Virus record (IMG/VR): IMGVR_UViG_3300045282_000133
Span: 1-29,744 of that record
Direction: 5' to 3' (one strand)
Origin: a virus
Length of the DNA: 29,744 nt
Of the stretch, positions 13,727 through 20,978 are shown one piece after another (the first letter of the stretch is position 1; each line of letters opens with the position of its first letter). The notes under the pieces are model-generated. The model saw only the letters and a list, made by a program, of their open reading frames with translations. It searched no databases and was not told the DNA's origin. The translations under genes and the position numbers were made by a program.

Positions 13727-14472
13727 TTACTTGGCCTGTTTCTTGCTTACACGCTCGAGGTAGGTGTTGTCCATCGCCGATACGTACCGGAAAATGCGAT
13801 CTCTTTGCTCTATCGATGTGATATAAAAAAGTTCACAATAATCTCGAATTACCGATATAGGGATGGGCAGAACACCTACGGCGCTCATGCCCCGGCTACC
13901 TGACATCTGCTGGAAGATGTTGTAATAGTAGATTTGCCGGGAATCAAGAGAAGGCCTTGAGCGAAGCGCTGGGGGGTCAGCCCCAAGCTTCTTCAGGCCG
14001 ATCAGGAACTCGACGTCGGCGCCCCATTGGAGGTGCCAGTCGAGATAACGGGCAAATTTTCTGCGTCCTCCGCCTCCACCGCTAGGCGGTAGTTCTTGAA
14101 GTTGTCGGACAGGGTGCCGACCAGCTTGCGAAATTCCGACAGGGCCAACAGCTTGGCTGCGTTCTCGACACTGTACGGCAGGTCGGCGCCTTGGTACTTG
14201 ACGTTGCCGGTCCAGCCCAGGAGGACCGACTTGGCCATCACGTCGATCATGATCTTGTCGGAGCAAGCTTGCGCAGCTTCGCGCGCGGCGTCGGTCGTCT
14301 TGTCGTCGAGGATTGCCTTGTTTGCCTCGTAGGCTGCGTTGAGCAGGCGGGCGTATTTTGGATTGCCGCTGCGGGCGATAAGGAAGGTTGCGTCGCCGCC
14401 GAACTCTTTGGTGAAGGGCTTGCCTTCAGCTTCTTGAGCAATATTGGTCGCGTACAGGTTAAAAATATCCAT
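13727..14472 (-). CDS. tail assembly chaperone G-T fusion made by -1 frameshift
   Basis: Joined product of 248 residues: residues 1-140 are shared with the shorter chaperone (start 14472). Ribosomes then slip back one base on AAATTTG at 14053-14059 and continue in the -1 frame from ARYLDWHLQW to the stop at 13727 (108 further residues). The -1 region reads as a proper protein (RDYCELFYITSIEQRDRIFRYV) but has no start codon of its own with a ribosome site; its open frame upstream of the slip site encodes Arg/Gly/Pro-rich nonsense typical of a shadow frame. This mirrors lambda gpG/gpGT: the G part coats the tape measure and the T part recruits tail tube protein. The position directly before the tape measure gene is diagnostic. 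Confidence 0.88.
14002..14472 (-). CDS. tail assembly chaperone (G-like, unshifted product)
   Basis: A 156-residue protein starting MDIFNLYATNIAQEAEGKPF, mostly helical, lying between the tail tube protein and the tape measure. I use the ATG at 14472, which lies about 24 bases after the predicted transcription start and has GGAG ten bases upstream; an upstream in-frame start at 14511 would lie upstream of that transcription start. The C-terminal end after the slip site (PVISTGTSNGAPTSSS) is low-complexity, as expected for the default terminator of a frameshift pair. Function by family: binds the tape measure protein and keeps it soluble before the tube polymerises. Confidence 0.87.
   Translation of the reverse strand: MDIFNLYATNIAQEAEGKPFTKEFGGDATFLIARSGNPKYARLLNAAYEANKAILDDKTTDAAREAAQACSDKIMIDVMAKSVLLGWTGNVKYQGADLPYSVENAAKLLALSEFRKLVGTLSDNFKNYRLAVEAEDAENLPVISTGTSNGAPTSSS
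14009..14044 (-). other. stem-loop downstream of the frameshift site
   Basis: On the minus strand CTCGAC (14044-14039) can pair with GTCGAG (14014-14009) across a 24-base loop that can form further GC pairs. It starts eight bases after the slippery heptamer, the spacing typical of stimulatory structures. Confidence 0.5.
14053..14059 (-). other. -1 ribosomal frameshift slippery heptamer
   Basis: Minus-strand A AAT TTG in the frame of the G-like gene, a canonical X XXY YYZ heptamer. A Shine-Dalgarno-like purine tract GGAGGCGGAGG ends seven bases upstream, which can stimulate -1 slippage as in dnaX, and a stem-loop follows eight bases downstream. Confidence 0.85.
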
Positions 14473-14501
14473 GGTGGACGGTCTCCGGTTGGTGAGCTTG
14501 C

Positions 14502-14530
14502 AGCATATCAAGCCTGTGCAGAATTGTCAA
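14502..14530 (-). promoter_or_regulatory. putative sigma70 promoter for tail chaperones and tape measure
   Basis: Minus strand: TTGACA, 17 bp, TATGCT. Perfect -35 box, optimal spacer, four of six at -10. It starts inside the T-run of the preceding terminator, so transcription is stopped and restarted here. The start codon at 14472 would have a leader of about 24 bases. Confidence 0.65.
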
Positions 14531-14557
14531 AAGAAAAGACCCGCAGTAAGCGGGTCT
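14531..14557 (-). terminator. second terminator downstream of the tail tube gene
   Basis: Perfect eight-pair stem AGACCCGC/GCGGGTCT (14537-14544 with 14550-14557), loop of five, followed on the minus strand by TTTTCTTTT. It stands in tandem with the terminator at 14633-14662. Confidence 0.8.
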
Positions 14558-14632
14558 CTAGTCGGCCACCAACTTCGCTTTCGCGGGCCTGAGTAAGCCA
14601 AGTGCTGGCATTTCTTGCAGCATACTCCCGAA

Positions 14633-14662
14633 ATAAAAAAGCCGCAACCCGAAGGTTGCGGC
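14633..14662 (-). terminator. strong Rho-independent terminator after the tail tube gene
   Basis: Perfect nine-pair stem GCCGCAACC/GGTTGCGGC with a four-base loop, followed on the minus strand by TTTTTTATT. It lies about 20 bases beyond the stop of the major tail protein and is the best terminator in the window. Confidence 0.93.
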
Positions 14663-14682
14663 AAAGTCCACCACCACGGTAA

Positions 14683-15900
14683 TTAAGGCAGGACGGCGAC
14701 GCCAAGCCGGTCGATGAGGACCGTTTTGCGCAGGCCGGCCACGGCATTATTGATGTCAGCATAGGCTTCCCACTGGAACGATGCGGTCAGGTCGGTATTC
14801 TTGCCGCCGGCCTCGACCTTCGCATTCGTCAGCATGACGCGTGGGAAGCAGAACACGTAGCCATTGCCGGCAGCGTCTTTGGTCGAGATCGTGATCGACG
14901 TGTAGGTATCGGTCAAGAACTTATCGTAGAGCGAGCCGTCCGAGAAGTACACGTCCAGATTGCCCTTGGCCATGAAGGTGCCGATACCGACACCAACCAG
15001 GCCCAGGTTACCGATCGCGTCCTGCGCACGCAGCGCGCTGTCGAGGTCCATCGACATCGACTTGATATAGGTCGAGACCAGGGGGATACCAGCTTCCCAC
15101 AGATTGCCGACGCCAGTCACGGCGTTCTGGATATCGAAAGCCAAGGAAGCGGTTGGGGCACCGGTAAAGGTAGTCGCACCGGAGCGTACCGACTTCTTAC
15201 CCAGAAAGCTGAAGGTGCCTTCCGTGTCCTGCGCCGAGGTGAAGGTCGTCGCGAACTTCGAAGGATACATGCCGGTCAGTGCGAAGAACTGAGTCACGTC
15301 GGCGTATTGCTTCTCGATCGTGAAGCTGGTCAGCGTGGTGCCGTTGCTGATACGCGACGATGCGACCGTGCACAGAGCAGTCGCCGTAGCGATCGAGCAA
15401 GGTGTGGAGGCGTCGAGCGTGATGACCGTGGACGTCGGGGCAACAGAAGCGGATACGCGCAGCCACAGGCCGTCATTGACGGTTGTCGGGGCGGTGAGGC
15501 GGAACCACTGGCCTTTTTGCAGGGCAGTAAAGATGCTTGCACCCGCGGTCGGAGCGGAAGCGGTGATCGTGGTGGCGGTGAAGTCCGCAGTAAAGGTCGC
15601 GCCGACACCGTTGACACCGAACACAACCCACGTCGTACGCATCACGGCGGCCAGCAGGCGGTCATACTCGCCGTACTGCATGTGCATCTTGATATCGCCG
15701 GCGGCCTGGGCATTCACAGTCGTGGTCGAAACCTGTTGAGCATCGGAGCGAATCTCCTTATCCGTCACCTTGGTCAGGTTGAAGGAGAGGGACTCGCCCG
15801 TCATACGCAAGTTCGCCGCGGTCGTGGCCGGCGTGACGCCAAAAGTGACTTCAGGGATATACGTTAGCTGCGCGCGGTCTGAGCTTCCGAGGATTGGCAT
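14683..15900 (-). CDS. major tail tube protein
   Basis: A 405-residue beta-rich protein starting MPILGSSDRAQLTYIPEVTFG, a typical opening of siphovirus tail tube proteins (an xxxYxxExTFG segment followed by TTAANLRMTGESLSFN). It continues with Thr/Ser/Ala-rich beta strands, a conserved-looking FYSDGSLYDKF-type segment late in the chain (DVYFSDGSLYDKFL, about 325-340) and a C-terminal strand with DLTASFQWEAY. It polymerises around the tape measure to form the tube. The gene has an extended -10 promoter upstream, GGAG eight bases before the ATG and two tandem terminators behind it, as expected for one of the two most highly made virion proteins. It is longer than lambda gpV, so an extra domain is likely in the middle (about 110-190). 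Confidence 0.88.
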   Translation of the reverse strand: MPILGSSDRAQLTYIPEVTFGVTPATTAANLRMTGESLSFNLTKVTDKEIRSDAQQVSTTTVNAQAAGDIKMHMQYGEYDRLLAAVMRTTWVVFGVNGVGATFTADFTATTITASAPTAGASIFTALQKGQWFRLTAPTTVNDGLWLRVSASVAPTSTVITLDASTPCSIATATALCTVASSRISNGTTLTSFTIEKQYADVTQFFALTGMYPSKFATTFTSAQDTEGTFSFLGKKSVRSGATTFTGAPTASLAFDIQNAVTGVGNLWEAGIPLVSTYIKSMSMDLDSALRAQDAIGNLGLVGVGIGTFMAKGNLDVYFSDGSLYDKFLTDTYTSITISTKDAAGNGYVFCFPRVMLTNAKVEAGGKNTDLTASFQWEAYADINNAVAGLRKTVLIDRLGVAVLP

Positions 15901-15927
15901 GATTTTTGCTCCAGGTTAATTTTCGTG

Positions 15928-15936
15928 AATATAGCA
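15928..15936 (-). promoter_or_regulatory. putative extended -10 promoter before the tail tube gene
   Basis: Minus strand TGCTATATT, an extended -10 (TGn plus five of six bases) about 28 bases before the ATG. No good -35 is seen at 17 bp. It would let the tail tube gene be transcribed separately from the neck genes. Confidence 0.4.
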
Positions 15937-15970
15937 GGAAAGTCTTGACATAGGTGATCAAGTTTGACCT

Positions 15971-16390
15971 TTATGTGCTGACTCTGTGAAAAAAGTAGTT
16001 CACGAGGATAGGAGCCCAGCGCCAGCCGGCGATCGGCTTCGCTTTGTATGCTCCGGCGGCGTGGCACCGAACCGTGCCAAGCACCTTCATGTCGAAGTAG
16101 GGAATGATGAAATCGATCAACTTATTCGGAATCACCGTCCCGGTGCCTTCTTTCGACACCACGTAAATAACGATCTGGCCGCGCTGCTTCACCAGAGGGT
16201 GCGCGGACATATCCGCCTGGTCCGACGTCAGCGGTGCAATTTCGATACTCAGGTAAGGGTTGCTCTGCGTCGATTGGTCGATCGTATCGCGGTCTTCTGC
16301 CTGGACGTTGAGAGTATAGTCGGACCAGGCGGCCTGAATAGCCGCCACTGTCGTCATTACATCAAGTCGTGCCTGTGTTTGCGCTCCCAC
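15971..16390 (-). CDS. tail terminator / tail completion protein
   Basis: A 139-residue protein immediately before the tail tube gene, the position of gpU-like tail terminators. It has an N-terminal helix containing the TVAAIQAAW segment and alternating strands (NPYLSIEIAP, GQIVIYVVS), the general fold order of that family. The GTG start at 16390 is chosen because GGGAG lies six bases upstream and it overlaps the TAG of the previous gene; the ATG at 16357 has only a weak site. The protein would cap the tube and join it to the neck. Sequence-level family recognition is limited. Confidence 0.65.
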   Translation of the reverse strand: MGAQTQARLDVMTTVAAIQAAWSDYTLNVQAEDRDTIDQSTQSNPYLSIEIAPLTSDQADMSAHPLVKQRGQIVIYVVSKEGTGTVIPNKLIDFIIPYFDMKVLGTVRCHAAGAYKAKPIAGWRWAPILVNYFFHRVST

Positions 16391-16866
16391 TATTTGCTCC
16401 CGTATTTCGCTTTGAGGTAGCTGCTGATACGCACGCCGCCGGGGATGATGTTTTCGGGCCGCAGATTTTGCGTGCCGCCGGCGCCGGTGACGGTCGTCGC
16501 CGTGAACTCGAGCGGAGTCTCGTTGACGAAGAACACCTTCTGCCGGAAATTGAATGGCACCCGGGCCGCCTGTTCACGCGCAAACGTGATGGCCTCTGGA
16601 TCACCTGCCTGATGTGGTTGCTGCGCAACAGCTACGCTGCCCTTGCCGGGCCAAGGTGTGAATGCTGCGCCGGCCTCTCCGCTCTCAGCCACGATGCGCC
16701 AATTGCTCGCATACTCGCCCGAGAACTGCGGGCTGACCAGCAGCACGTCTTCGAACATGCGGTACACCTGGGCACGGAAGGTGCGGTTGGTATTCGCCTC
16801 CACCTTCGCTCGAGCGCGCTGGAGGATGTTGCGATTCGCCGCGGCGTCGACGCGCAGCGAGATCAT
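16390..16866 (-). CDS. neck protein, HK97 gp10-like
   Basis: A 158-residue basic protein with an N-terminal helical part (RARAKVEANTNRTFRAQVYRMF), a VSPQFSGEYASNWRI segment (about 45-60) resembling the P-x-d-TG-x-L-x-x-S-W pattern of HK97 gp10/minor tail family, and a C-terminal end in GGVRISSYLKAKYG. Its ATG overlaps the TGA of the gene before (ATGA). It probably joins the head connector and the tail tube. Family assignment is by pattern and gene order. Confidence 0.68.
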   Translation of the reverse strand: MISLRVDAAANRNILQRARAKVEANTNRTFRAQVYRMFEDVLLVSPQFSGEYASNWRIVAESGEAGAAFTPWPGKGSVAVAQQPHQAGDPEAITFAREQAARVPFNFRQKVFFVNETPLEFTATTVTGAGGTQNLRPENIIPGGVRISSYLKAKYGSK

Positions 16867-17696
16867 GCAAGCCTCGCTGATAGAGCCCAGCTGTCTGCCT
16901 CATCGACTACCGACAAGGTTTTCCAGGGGCCGCCCAGCATCGTGAAGACGGCGCCCACCTTCGGTGTCAAGGCCGACTTAGCCACGAATACGGTGCGGTC
17001 GCCTGGCTTGCGGTCGGCCTCGGCCGCGGTGCGGAACTTGTAGAATTTTGCCTGGTCCGTCTGGATCACGGTTGTCGCCACGGAGACAGTACTCGGCAAG
17101 TCCGTCGTCAGGCTGATGCCTGCATTGCTGGTGAACGTGGCGGCCTGCAGCGCGTCGCTGTCGAACTGGTCGGTCTCGGCGATGTTGAAGCCTTCCACTG
17201 AGCGATAGCTGTTGCGCACGCGCAGCAGCATCGCGCCGTCCAGGAAGAACGAACCCTTGATGACCGCCTCATTCGGCGGGCAATAAATATTCCACATCGT
17301 GTCGAACTCAGCGTCCGTCACGGGATTCAGGTTGTCGCGGTAGTATTCCTTGTAGGCATGCATACTGGTGCCGGCGCTGGACAGGCAGGCCTGCGCCGGC
17401 GTCAGCAGCTTGATCAAGCCGGTAGAGCGCTTGAGCGAGTAGTTGCGGCGGATCACGGCGCCCTTGAAGCCATCAGGATTGCTGTCGCCCAGAAGCCACA
17501 CGTCGCCCAGGATCGAGACAGCGTGCCGGGCCGGCGAGGTCAGGCCGTCCTGGGCCGACAGGGTGTGGCGCCGAAAGGTGTCGCCCGAGACGTGCTCGGC
17601 CGGACTGAGCATCTGCCCCTTGAAAAGAAACGCACTCGTGTACGCATCGAGCACGCTGTCTTTGTCGAAATAGCGGGCGGCATTGACCAGCTTCAT
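16863..17696 (-). CDS. head-tail connector / neck structural protein
   Basis: A 277-residue protein between the small adaptor and the gp10-like gene, mixed alpha/beta: MKLVNAARYFDKDSVLDAYT at the start, then a strand-rich centre (GDVWLLGDSNPDGFKGAVIRR, about 63-83) and a C-terminal small beta domain (TVFVAKSALTPKVGAVFTMLGGPWKTLSVV). The C-terminal end, about residues 230-265, has the look of a head-closure fold (a short barrel that protects a strand-loop-strand), but I cannot name a family with certainty. It is coupled at both ends by ATGA overlaps. Confidence 0.65.
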   Translation of the reverse strand: MKLVNAARYFDKDSVLDAYTSAFLFKGQMLSPAEHVSGDTFRRHTLSAQDGLTSPARHAVSILGDVWLLGDSNPDGFKGAVIRRNYSLKRSTGLIKLLTPAQACLSSAGTSMHAYKEYYRDNLNPVTDAEFDTMWNIYCPPNEAVIKGSFFLDGAMLLRVRNSYRSVEGFNIAETDQFDSDALQAATFTSNAGISLTTDLPSTVSVATTVIQTDQAKFYKFRTAAEADRKPGDRTVFVAKSALTPKVGAVFTMLGGPWKTLSVVDEADSWALSARLA

Positions 17697-18181
17697 ACGC
17701 CTGTGACCGGATCAAATGCGATGCCGCTATTGATAGCGAAAATGCGGGCTACCGACGTCGCCACGGAAGCAGTCGGAAAGAGGATGGTGTAGACGCTGCG
17801 CACGCGCGGAATCAGGTAATCCAGGGTGCCTAGGATCTCCCCGCGCAAATCTGCGTAGGGATCCGTCACCCGACTCATCTGCGACTTGCTGTCCATCACC
17901 GTCTGCGGTGCGAACATGCGTACGCTGGTCAGCAGGAATTGCGCTACCTGGTAGGCCGCGCAAGACTGGACAAGTTCTTTGAAGCGCAGCTGGTCCGCGC
18001 TGGGCGATCCAGGCAACGCTGCGAAAGCTGCGACGATGCCTGGATTGATGTCCGCAAGTTTTTCCTGGAGCTGCACAGCGTAGATAGGGGCGAGGATGGT
18101 AGCGTCCTCGATCTCTTCTGTGGAGACACCCAGCACAGCACGGATGCTGTCAGTCGTGCAGTAATCGGTCAGAGTGATCAT
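17693..18181 (-). CDS. head-tail adaptor protein
   Basis: A 162-residue mainly helical protein (MITLTDYCTTDSIRAVLGVSTEEIED, then long helices), first of the tightly coupled neck set. The opening fits the small helical adaptor (HK97 gp6 / SPP1 gp15) group: a short segment predicting that DNA exits through a dodecameric ring below the portal. A strong AGGAG precedes the ATG. It also has an extended -10 promoter-like motif 20-30 bases upstream. Confidence 0.65.
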   Translation of the reverse strand: MITLTDYCTTDSIRAVLGVSTEEIEDATILAPIYAVQLQEKLADINPGIVAAFAALPGSPSADQLRFKELVQSCAAYQVAQFLLTSVRMFAPQTVMDSKSQMSRVTDPYADLRGEILGTLDYLIPRVRSVYTILFPTASVATSVARIFAINSGIAFDPVTGV

Positions 18182-18198
18182 GAAATCTCCTTTTTACG

Positions 18199-18207
18199 AT
18201 TATGGCA
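18199..18207 (-). promoter_or_regulatory. extended -10 motif before the adaptor gene
   Basis: Minus strand TGCCATAAT, identical to the extended -10 at 18557-18565. No -35 box is seen at the right distance. It lies 17 bases before the adaptor ATG, so a transcript would have a leader of only about ten bases. Confidence 0.35.
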
Positions 18208-18218
18208 CGACTCTTGCT

Positions 18219-18530
18219 TTATTTCTTGGACTTTTTCGCCGCTACATCTTCCTCAGCATACGTGGCGGCCTCTGCTGCTTCGGCGTCTTTGATTCGCTGC
18301 AGGGCTTCTTCAGCTGCTTGGGCTTCGGCTTCGCCAGCGGCGAGCGCTGCAAGTTCTTCCTTGGTCGGGCCGGTCGGAGCGCTGTTCGGATCATCGCACA
18401 GCTCGATGCAAGGTTGGCCCTTGGCCCATTCGGTGTGGATCGTGTGGACAGGTGTCATGGGCTCGAAGATAACGCCATCAGGACTTGGCAAGCGGTATTG
18501 CGCGGTGGAGCGCAGCCATACTGGGTTCAT
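18219..18530 (-). CDS. small acidic head/neck protein
   Basis: A 103-residue protein: residues 1-50 form a compact-looking N-terminal part (MNPVWLRSTAQYRLPSPDGV, then WAKGQPCIELCDDP), 55-95 an Ala/Glu-rich helix (coiled coil), ending in a Lys-rich tail (AAKKSKK). AGGAGG lies six bases upstream. The first gene of the neck module, transcribed from its own promoter. No family recognised. Similar small proteins with an acidic helix occur between capsid and connector genes in many siphoviruses, so a connector or assembly role is likely. Confidence 0.7.
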   Translation of the reverse strand: MNPVWLRSTAQYRLPSPDGVIFEPMTPVHTIHTEWAKGQPCIELCDDPNSAPTGPTKEELAALAAGEAEAQAAEEALQRIKDAEAAEAATYAEEDVAAKKSKK

Positions 18531-18556
18531 ACAGACCTCCTTTTAGGGTTTCGCGG

Positions 18557-18587
18557 ATTATGGCACAAATAGTGCTTGGGATGTCAA
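18557..18587 (-). promoter_or_regulatory. putative promoter for the neck module
   Basis: Minus strand: perfect TTGACA, 19 bp, extended -10 TGCCATAAT (CATAAT five of six). The long spacer is compensated by the TGn element. It interleaves with a plus-strand promoter (18576-18604), so both cannot be occupied by polymerase at once. Confidence 0.6.
18563..18575. promoter_or_regulatory. possible operator dyad between overlapping promoters
   Basis: GCAC, five bases, GTGC sits within the neck promoter spacer and directly next to the plus-strand -35. It is a candidate site for the ribbon-helix-helix protein encoded 50 bases away. The arms are short. Confidence 0.3.
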
Positions 18588-18604
18588 TTGGGTTGTGGTA
18601 AAGT
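18576..18604 (+). promoter_or_regulatory. putative promoter for the RHH / GIY-YIG cassette
   Basis: TTGGGA, 17 bp, TAAAGT (four of six in each box). It precedes the RHH ATG by 22 bases, with GGAGG in between, giving a leader of about 15 bases. It reads against the late transcript. Confidence 0.5.
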
Positions 18605-18625
18605 GTGGGCTTACTTGGAGGAATT

Positions 18626-18802
18626 ATGAAAAAATTTGACCCAACAAAATCTGAGGCATTCCTGAGCATGCGCATCCCGATGGAGCTACGTATGCAGCTG
18701 GAAGTGATCGCGAAGGCGGAGGACCGCACCGTGGCGTCTGTGGTGCGCCGCGCGCTGGAAGCCCAGCTGCTGGCGGAGAAGGGGATTCTCGATGCCTCTT
18801 AA
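18626..18802 (+). CDS. ribbon-helix-helix (Arc/CopG-like) DNA-binding protein
   Basis: A 58-residue protein. A beta strand SEAFLSMRIP (about 9-18) is followed by helix A (MELRMQLEVIAKAED) and helix B (VASVVRRALEAQLLA), the standard RHH order with a basic N-terminus. These proteins dimerise and read operator DNA with the paired strand. The ATG at 18626 has GGAGG four bases upstream; earlier in-frame starts lack one. The gene overlaps the GIY-YIG gene by 11 bases, so the two are translated together. It likely represses its own promoter and, because the promoters interleave, may also affect the neck genes (inference). Confidence 0.85.
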   Translation: MKKFDPTKSEAFLSMRIPMELRMQLEVIAKAEDRTVASVVRRALEAQLLAEKGILDAS

Positions 18803-19703
18803 CTGGATACCTCTGGCCGATTCGAAGTCTCTGCCGGCCGTCTGCGGCCTATACCTGATCCGCGGCCCGGCCGGCGAATACGTCGGGAAGTCGATCAACA
18901 TCCAAGCGCGCATGCGCGGGCACCGTCAGGCCAAGCAGGAATCCGGCCACCTGCACCGCGCGATCCGGAAGCATGGTATTGCCAAGTTCGAGGTCTGCGT
19001 CCTGATGACGGGCACCGAGGCAGAGACGTTGGCGGCCGAGATCGTGGAGATCGCCGCGCGCGGCACCTACGGCGACGGCGGCTACAACGCCACGCTGGGC
19101 GGCGAAGGGTCGTCGGGCACGGTGTGGACTTTGATGATGAAGGTGCGGAAGGGTAACCAAAGTCGGGCGAACTGGACAGATGAGCAGCGAGCTGCGCTGT
19201 CCGCCCGCCGAACCGGGCAGAAGCATTCAGAAGAGACGAAGCAGAAAATGCGGGAAGCTCGCTTGGCGAATAACCCGATGAAGGGCCGGAAGCATAGTCC
19301 GGAAACCCTGGCTAAACAGTCTGCAGCGACAACTGCAATCGGAAGAAAAATCTCACCAGAACAGAGGCTTGCTATGGCAGCAGGAAAAGTAGGAAAGAAG
19401 AATCGCCCGCAAACCGAACTCACCAAGCTCCGCCTGAGCTTGGTGAAAACGGGCGTACCAAAGCCTGCAGGCTATGCCGATAAGTACTCTAAGGGAGAGA
19501 GAAACCCTATGTACGGCAGAACCGGAGCAAAGAACCCGCTCTCGAAGCCCCTAGGCGTCTGGACGCCAGGCAGCATGACACCAATAACGTTCGAGAGTGC
19601 GACGGAAGCCTGCGCATGGGCAGGCTGCACGAATGGAACAATGACAGGCTACCTGCAGGGCAAATATAAGCCCAAAAGCGGCAACACTTTCGCTTACCTA
19701 TGA
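18792..19703 (+). CDS. GIY-YIG homing-type endonuclease with NUMOD3 repeats
   Basis: A 303-residue protein. The N-terminal GIY-YIG nuclease domain is plain: GLY (Y21), EYVGKS (Y30), Arg40 with His44 in NIQARMRGH, a Glu in EIVEIAARGTYG, and YNATLGGEG. It is followed by NUMOD3-type DNA-binding motifs (HSEETKQKMREA about 144-155, KHSPETLAKQS, ISPEQRLAMA) and a C-terminal segment (SATEACAWAGC, about 267-277) like the helix-turn-helix seen in such nucleases. These enzymes nick or cut a specific site and promote their own spread. It lies antisense to the late genes, free-standing and not within an intron. All catalytic residues I would look for are present. Confidence 0.92.
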   Translation: MPLNWIPLADSKSLPAVCGLYLIRGPAGEYVGKSINIQARMRGHRQAKQESGHLHRAIRKHGIAKFEVCVLMTGTEAETLAAEIVEIAARGTYGDGGYNATLGGEGSSGTVWTLMMKVRKGNQSRANWTDEQRAALSARRTGQKHSEETKQKMREARLANNPMKGRKHSPETLAKQSAATTAIGRKISPEQRLAMAAGKVGKKNRPQTELTKLRLSLVKTGVPKPAGYADKYSKGERNPMYGRTGAKNPLSKPLGVWTPGSMTPITFESATEACAWAGCTNGTMTGYLQGKYKPKSGNTFAYL

Positions 19704-19726
19704 AAAACGGCCCGTGAGGGCCGTTT
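19703..19726. terminator. bidirectional terminator between GIY-YIG and capsid genes
   Basis: Perfect nine-pair stem AAACGGCCC/GGGCCGTTT with loop GTGA. On the minus strand it is followed by TTTTTC and ends capsid transcription; on the plus strand it is followed by a weaker CATATTT and ends the nuclease transcript. The two genes converge on it. Confidence 0.88.
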
Positions 19727-19735
19727 CATATTTCG

Positions 19736-19750
19736 CCGAAGAATCTTCGG
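19736..19750. repeat. 15-base inverted repeat after the capsid gene
   Basis: CCGAAGAATCTTCGG, seven pairs about a single central base (or six pairs around a three-base loop). It lies between the capsid stop and the terminator and may protect the mRNA end or help termination. Confidence 0.6.
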
Positions 19751-19754
19751 TAAA

Positions 19755-20978
19755 TCAGCTGATCGTGAGTACATCGAACGGCTGAAGTGCGCTGTCCCCG
19801 AAGAAGCGAAAAACTTCTTCCGACCAGTTCAAAACCATAAGCTCTGAACGTCGACTGATGAATTGCTCGATCGCCGTGTACTCCGCCTCGGTGTTTTTGA
19901 CGCGCGAGATAGCTTGCGTCGCATCCAGAGCCCAGACCGTGTTGGCCGGAACAGGGCCGCCGGCGGTGGCGAAGTCAACCAGGAAGAATTTCACGTCCTG
20001 GGCGAAATCGCTGTTCTTCAGTGCTGCCTGGCTGTCGATGGTCGACAGGCGGTTGTCGTAAGCCGACAGGCCTGGACGTCCAGTGCGTGACTCGATGGCC
20101 AGGTAGGCATTCAGGTCGCCGATGACGTGCGTGATGCGACGCTGTTTGCGGTTGCGAGCCAGGAAGCTCATCCAGGCCTTATGGGTCAGGACGCCGCCGG
20201 TAGCTGCCGAGTCGAGCGAGTTCGACGTGACGGCCGAGACGGCACCAGTCACCATGTCGTTGTCGCCGGCGAACAGCGAGCTCAGGTAGTTGTAGACGCG
20301 CTGATCTTTCTCGACCTGCAGGTAGCGATTGATCGTGAAAGCCAAGGTGTCGATGGTCGACGCCTTCATGGCTTGCTGCGACATCTCGATACCCATACCG
20401 TAGGTCGGCAGACGACGGAACTTGTCGGTCGTGGTGATCTGCAGCACGGTCGGCACGTCAGCCAGCTGGGCAACGCGCTGATGCTTGGCCGACTGCGGGC
20501 CGCCGGTGCCGGAGTAACTGATGACTGGCTGTTCGAACACATCGCCGGCGATCGACAGCTCTTGGCAGACCATGTCGTCGAACAAGACAGTGTCGGTGAC
20601 ACGATCGACAGCGACTTGCGATTCGATATAGGCGATCAGAGCCGCAGGGAACAGCGTGCGCGACGCAGTGCCGAACGGTGTGCCGCGCTGTTCGGTATTG
20701 GTACCCGAAGCTGCGCTGAAGCCGCTCTTGTTGTTCAGGATGTCGGCCACCGAGGCGCCAACGATACCGAAAGGGTTGTCCGACGCCTTGGGCGCTGCAA
20801 CCAGGCCCTCGGATGCGCACAGCTGGGCAAACGCGGTACCGATTTTCGGGTCAGCGTCGGCGTGAATGCGGTTCAGGTACTGCGGGACGCTTTGTTTCGC
20901 GTCATGGGCAGCCTTGTACATATCAGCGGTGAGGCCGACATGCTGAATCACGCCATCAATGGTTTGGTAAAAAGACAT
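19755..20978 (-). CDS. major capsid protein
   Basis: A 407-residue protein in the canonical place after protease, scaffold and decoration genes. The HK97-like features are a long N-terminal helical region (about 1-90, with an Ala/Ser-rich stretch to about 110), an E-loop-like segment (SYSGTGGPQSAKHQRVAQLADVPTVLQ, about 156-182), a spine-helix region around 205-245 (MKASTIDTLAFTINRYLQVEKDQRV) and a P-domain/A-domain ending with WSEEVFRFFGDSALQPFDVLTIS. Good GGGAG upstream, and a strong terminator follows. The S49 protease nearby suggests maturation cleavage near the N-terminus. Abundant expression is likely. The fold assignment is by gene order and length. Confidence 0.87.
   Translation of the reverse strand: MSFYQTIDGVIQHVGLTADMYKAAHDAKQSVPQYLNRIHADADPKIGTAFAQLCASEGLVAAPKASDNPFGIVGASVADILNNKSGFSAASGTNTEQRGTPFGTASRTLFPAALIAYIESQVAVDRVTDTVLFDDMVCQELSIAGDVFEQPVISYSGTGGPQSAKHQRVAQLADVPTVLQITTTDKFRRLPTYGMGIEMSQQAMKASTIDTLAFTINRYLQVEKDQRVYNYLSSLFAGDNDMVTGAVSAVTSNSLDSAATGGVLTHKAWMSFLARNRKQRRITHVIGDLNAYLAIESRTGRPGLSAYDNRLSTIDSQAALKNSDFAQDVKFFLVDFATAGGPVPANTVWALDATQAISRVKNTEAEYTAIEQFISRRSELMVLNWSEEVFRFFGDSALQPFDVLTIS

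Follow-up and report, generated by a model that had tools for sequence, protein, structure and literature searches.

A probable homing cassette carrying an RHH gene, set antisense at a capsid–neck terminator-promoter junction of an uncultivated phage

The phage T4 endonucleases SegA to SegG are free-standing and intergenic, occur sporadically, and home without an intron (PMC2988022). One of their genes, segD, codes for a free-standing GIY-YIG endonuclease between gene 23 (major capsid) and gene 24; no other homing endonuclease gene of T4 is antisense, and, as far as that review describes it, segD has no recognizable promoter of its own (PMC2988022). I-TevI, the intron-encoded GIY-YIG endonuclease of T4, represses its own transcription via its own DNA binding (PMC2988022). 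In the portions of the literature covered here (including PMC2988022, PMC10448857, and PMC10853773), no RHH partner of a homing endonuclease was found described.

The locus considered here lies in a window of 29,744 nucleotides, positions 1 to 29,744 of the IMG/VR virus record IMGVR_UViG_3300045282_000133. An earlier note, made from the letters alone, had described a mobile nuclease cassette of two plus-strand open reading frames (ORFs), RHH and GIY-YIG, antisense to the structural genes and placed between the capsid terminator and the neck promoter. Both ORFs are present, their coordinates bear out the position (Table 1), and the mobile-type reading gains support from relatives with and without a cassette at the site. 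Here, "neck" and "tail-protein" are positional labels, and the neck gene has no family match. The nuclease start overlaps the RHH-gene stop by 11 bases, and the nuclease ORF lies outside introns and inteins, in an intergenic position with both neighboring ORFs intact. A group I intron was rejected as the carrier of the cassette, as Rfam matched no intron family, group I included, in 17600-20100. The 80-aa gene that relatives such as L002 carry between their 103-aa and 162-aa genes (10607-10849 in L002) is absent from the corresponding interval of the window (18182-18218).

Table 1. Coordinates of the cassette and of the flanking features in the window.
Feature	Position	Strand	Details
RHH (Arc/CopG/Mnt-like) small DNA-binding protein gene	18626..18802	+	58 aa; phrog_3431 Arc-like repressor, E 4e-5
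GIY-YIG + NUMOD3 free-standing homing-type endonuclease gene	18792..19703	+	303 aa; phrog_314 homing endonuclease, E 3e-33
Major capsid protein gene, left neighbor of the cassette	19755..20978	-	phrog_3922, E 1e-28
103-aa gene downstream of the neck promoter	18219..18530	-	no family match
162-aa gene	17693..18181	-	own copy of the phage promoter motif at 18198-18208
Hairpin terminator after the capsid gene, GAAACGGCCC-TCAC-GGGCCGTTTT	19704..19727	.	abuts the nuclease stop codon
Neck promoter -35, TTGACA	18582..18587	-	promoter scoring, relatives
Neck promoter -10, CATAAT, preceded by TGTGC	18557..18562	-	resident phage promoter; relatives
Predicted cassette -35, TTGGGA, inside the neck-promoter spacer	18576..18581	+	promoter scoring
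Cassette extended -10, TGTGGTAAAGT	18594..18604	+	TGTGSTA present in 7/9 related cassettes
GCAC-N5-GTGC dyad	18563..18575	.	on the phage promoter motif; not above chance

Of the systems in the sources covered, T4 segD comes closest: like the window cassette, it is GIY-YIG, intergenic, next to a capsid gene, and antisense to its neighbors (PMC2988022). It differs in that an extended -10 element accompanies most of the cassettes described here, an RHH gene overlaps the nuclease gene in five cases, and all nine copies are antisense. The window-group nucleases also resemble SegA to SegG in their intergenic, sporadic occurrence; however, the seg genes other than segD share the orientation of their neighbors, and no RHH partner was found described for them in that review (PMC2988022). 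A free-standing GIY-YIG homing gene is thus a known entity, while the antisense orientation, the terminator-promoter setting, and the frequent RHH partner are uncommon and repeated. Our preferred explanation, which we hold to be probable, is that a free-standing RHH and GIY-YIG homing cassette occupies this terminator-promoter junction, has its own promoter and an RHH autorepressor, and has been spread by homing.

Judged from its sequence, the window gene is a free-standing GIY-YIG homing-type endonuclease. Its product exceeds the Pfam cut-offs for both GIY-YIG (24.1 bits; cut-off, 22.6) and NUMOD3 (50.9; cut-off, 20.4), and the closest solved catalytic domain is that of I-TevI. Residues Y21, Y30-V31-G32, R40, E83, and N99, which we take to be the catalytic positions of the GIY-YIG fold as in I-TevI and UvrC, are invariant across nine related nucleases. 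NUMOD3 is above the cut-off in three of these nine (the window, L003, and L005) and weak in three more (L002, the L126 neck copy, and L087), and thus several of them likely have a DNA-binding part of their own.

The RHH assignment is weak from the window ORF alone, which falls below the Pfam cut-off (Arc, E 0.0046), and convincing, on profile and model evidence, for the homologues as a group. A profile of five RHH homologues matches the solved RHH proteins ORF56 (E 1e-4) and Mnt, and the four other homologues are 28-45% identical to the window protein. In a structure model with a mean pLDDT of 77.6, the two helices are in place, and the best Foldseek matches of this model are RHH proteins, RHH antitoxins included, none of them significant (best E 0.096). 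In size, predicted helix layout, and profile match, the protein thus resembles the Arc, Mnt, and CopG repressors. In all five pairs, RHH comes first and its stop overlaps the nuclease start, an arrangement consistent with translational coupling and with restrained expression of the nuclease. Local autorepression is the probable role of the RHH protein.

Capsid searches returned 12 relatives, giving 13 records with the window; a portal search returned 71 loci, some of them on the same contigs, giving 72 sources with the window. All relatives are uncultivated contigs. A related nuclease is present in 6 of the 13 records, at the capsid|neck junction in the window, L002, and L003, upstream of the portal gene in L005, and between the tail-protein gene and the next gene in L087 and L091. 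The 72 sources hold nine matching nucleases in eight records, at three terminator-promoter junctions, and every one is antisense to the structural genes. L126 carries two different antisense nucleases, one at the neck junction linked to an RHH gene and one at the tail junction without RHH (20093-20815 and 14595-15522, respectively), and L068/L157, whose portal is only 41% identical, has an RHH-nuclease pair at the neck junction. Relatives without the cassette at this junction, which the earlier note had proposed to look for, were found in L004, L005, L006, and L087-L093. The capsid|neck gap was scored as complete in 39 of the 72 sources, or 35 distinct phages at 95% capsid identity, and five of these 35 have a nuclease in it; the 33 sources without a recognized capsid or neck gene lie outside this count. 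Taken together, the comparison shows that the cassette is absent from most relatives and always antisense where present, and that the terminator position and the neck promoter exist without it.

Even close relatives differ in occupancy: L002 carries the neck-junction cassette, and L004 and L005, with 90-91% capsid DNA identity, have none there. On the capsid tree, the five nuclease carriers do not cluster and need five separate changes, and the L109-L111 group is the partner of the window capsid (100/99). The nine nucleases come together on their own tree (93/95), where the tail-junction copies, that of L126 included, make up a single group (100/99) and the window nuclease is joined to that of L003 (95/95). 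This disagreement between the trees fits transfer between phages. At the tail-protein junction of the L003 phage, the short stretch L113 20170-20235 resembles, by eye, the two ends of the L087/L091 cassette joined without its middle and is likely a deletion scar. The tail-protein junction of the window (14460-14695, minus strand) is longer by about 100 bases than that of most relatives and holds a second hairpin, which may be the remnant of an older insertion. In L162, a 594-aa antisense protein (14907-16691, minus strand) with DUF723, restriction-nuclease-like, and CapR-like matches occupies the junction of the 103-aa and 162-aa genes; there, a gap of this kind holds a different type of nuclease.

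Among the 13 records, RHH genes occur only beside a nuclease (three of three: the window, L002, and L005); a fourth hit, with E 0.014 across 13 positions, was discounted as a chance match. An RHH gene kept without the nuclease and without overlapping promoters, which the earlier note had named as evidence against its proposal, was not found in these records of the phage group. RHH relatives without an adjacent GIY-YIG gene do occur in other viral contigs (L106 and L108). When 80 nuclease loci were searched with a profile of three RHH sequences, an upstream RHH gene appeared only at L008 (=L005), L009 (=L002), and L068, all members of the window's phage group, so that no pairing outside this group was found among these loci; two further hits (E 2.6 and 3.1) were set aside as far from the nuclease, and ten upstream ORFs picked from other nuclease loci gave no RHH match in Pfam. 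Because four of the nine related cassettes lack RHH, including that of L003, the nearest relative of the window nuclease, RHH is not essential to them.

Both promoters lie within the 95 bases from the RHH start to the start of the 103-aa gene, and they interleave as the earlier note had proposed, each predicted -35 falling in the spacer of the other. The neck promoter reads TTGACA-N19-CATAAT (spacer 19, minus strand), and the cassette promoter reads TTGGGA-N17-TAAAGT (spacer 17, plus strand). In shuffles of the same region, the neck score was reached in 0 of 500 and the cassette score in 3%; a stricter promoter scan picked up neither (spacer 19; 8/12 matches). The neck promoter is the phage's own, since cassette-free relatives keep it: its core, TTTCYRTGNCACAAT, is found with at most one mismatch in the gap of 8 of the 10 empty records (diverged in L006 and L092), and in all ten the neck gene starts within about 100 bases after the terminator. 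Over whole records, TTTCYRTGNCACAAT has 18 exact copies in 10 of the 13, upstream of the 103-aa and 162-aa genes, and L003 and L004 have a two-mismatch variant of the motif ahead of the portal gene. By contrast, no such promoter is seen in L174, the empty sister of L126. The window has exact copies of GTGCCATAATC ahead of the 162-aa and 103-aa genes (18198-18208 and 18556-18566, both minus strand); in relatives, the copy ahead of the 162-aa gene takes a more conserved form, AAGCAATTTCTGTGCCACAATA, and the phage promoter motif stands at terminator-promoter junctions. A search for the phage RNA polymerase family PF00940 matched none of 10 records and was uninformative, as the control gave no match either.

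On the cassette side, TGTGSTA, the start of the extended -10, recurs in seven of nine upstream regions (shuffles: mean 0.31, maximum 3) and is absent in L002 and L003. Because it accompanies cassettes with and without RHH, it appears to be part of a promoter, not a site for RHH. As full sigma-70 promoters, those of the L087, L091, and L068 cassettes score no better than shuffles (p 0.63, 0.46, and 0.15). In all nine cassettes, the two gene starts lie 95-121 bases apart, so the two promoters must crowd, and independent insertions repeatedly show the back-to-back arrangement. The two -35 boxes of L002, like those of L126, share five bases (TTGTCAA, readable both ways); the resident box of L004, which is close to L002 but empty, is TTGCCAC, and therefore the two-way box of L002 was not simply inherited.

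The terminator differs with occupancy too. Within the 13 records, the hairpin loop is TTCG at 9 of the 10 empty junctions (TGCG at the remaining one) and at none of the three filled ones; outside these records, the TTCG loop is also absent from filled L126 and L068 and from empty L174. Co-conversion or selection for two-way termination could account for this difference, and the capsid-gene terminator is possibly bidirectional.

The earlier note went further and proposed that the cassette could switch between its own expression and that of the neck genes; in the form considered here, RHH bound between the interleaved promoters would turn transcription from one to the other and give the phage a regulated checkpoint. 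The interleaving itself, the overlapping -35 boxes of L002 and L126, and the company that RHH keeps all speak for such a switch: RHH-bearing cassettes adjoin neck promoters (four) or a portal promoter (one), which carry a common motif in some relatives, and none of the three at the tail-junction promoter has RHH. However, 30 of the 35 distinct phages have no GIY-YIG nuclease in the gap at all, and similar back-to-back spacing occurs without RHH in L003, at the same site, and in the three other-junction cassettes without RHH (L087, L091, and the L126 tail copy). The dyad noted beside the promoters is present, yet a 4-base dyad with a loop of 5 arises in 21% of shuffles (P 0.21), and GCACTATTTGTGCCATAAT in the window falls on the phage promoter motif; because that motif is found in cassette-free relatives, the dyad is not a cassette feature, and it was rejected as an RHH operator. 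No inverted or direct repeat above shuffles was found in any of the five RHH-bearing upstream regions, where short diverged half-sites could escape, and inspection by eye suggested a TGTGG-N5-TGTGG repeat for the window and L005, which was dropped because the other RHH-bearing cassettes do not share it. The switch is thus not supported, its neck promoter and dyad region belong to the cassette-free phage, and we regard it as quite unlikely. A broader version would see RHH-nuclease cassettes as plug-in antisense homing elements, a class of their own adapted to terminator-promoter junctions, the resident -35 becoming a two-way promoter that makes nuclease and structural transcription mutually exclusive while RHH sets which fires; this version is speculative and rather unlikely.

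The overlap of the genes with RHH first in every pair, together with the RHH antitoxins among the fold matches, would also suit a toxin-antitoxin-like or targeted-cutting pair, in which RHH binds the nuclease or guides it to DNA; the four nucleases without an RHH partner and the NUMOD3 regions described above argue otherwise, and we consider such a pair highly improbable. That all nine nuclease frames are open, and that T4 nucleases are known for marker exclusion (PMC2988022), might instead suggest a gene retained because it is useful to the phage, e.g., by excluding competing phages through cutting of their DNA. We find this very unlikely, as the sporadic presence, the lack of clustering on the capsid tree, and the probable deletion scar in the L003 phage fit turnover rather than fixation.

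Under the preferred reading of a homing cassette with an RHH autorepressor, the cassette would spread into cassette-free relatives by double-strand-break repair during coinfection, and the phage would tolerate it because no gene is interrupted and the resident promoter is kept. Because the insertion is so compact, the cassette and neck promoters would come to overlap, with the consequence that only one polymerase at a time could occupy the pair. The RHH protein may bind near its own promoter and limit nuclease expression, by analogy with I-TevI, which shares the GIY-YIG catalytic domain; unlike that intron-located, self-repressing enzyme, the repressor here would be a separate protein, and no intron is involved. 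Any influence on the neck genes would then be a by-product of promoter crowding.

It is a standing question, raised in the T4 review (PMC2988022), how a selfish nuclease can persist and yet leave its phage unharmed. This phage group offers a natural series in which the junction is empty, holds a nuclease alone, or holds a nuclease with RHH, plus two other junctions. With such a series, the antisense position, the crowded -35 boxes, and the RHH partner can each be tested for cost and benefit.
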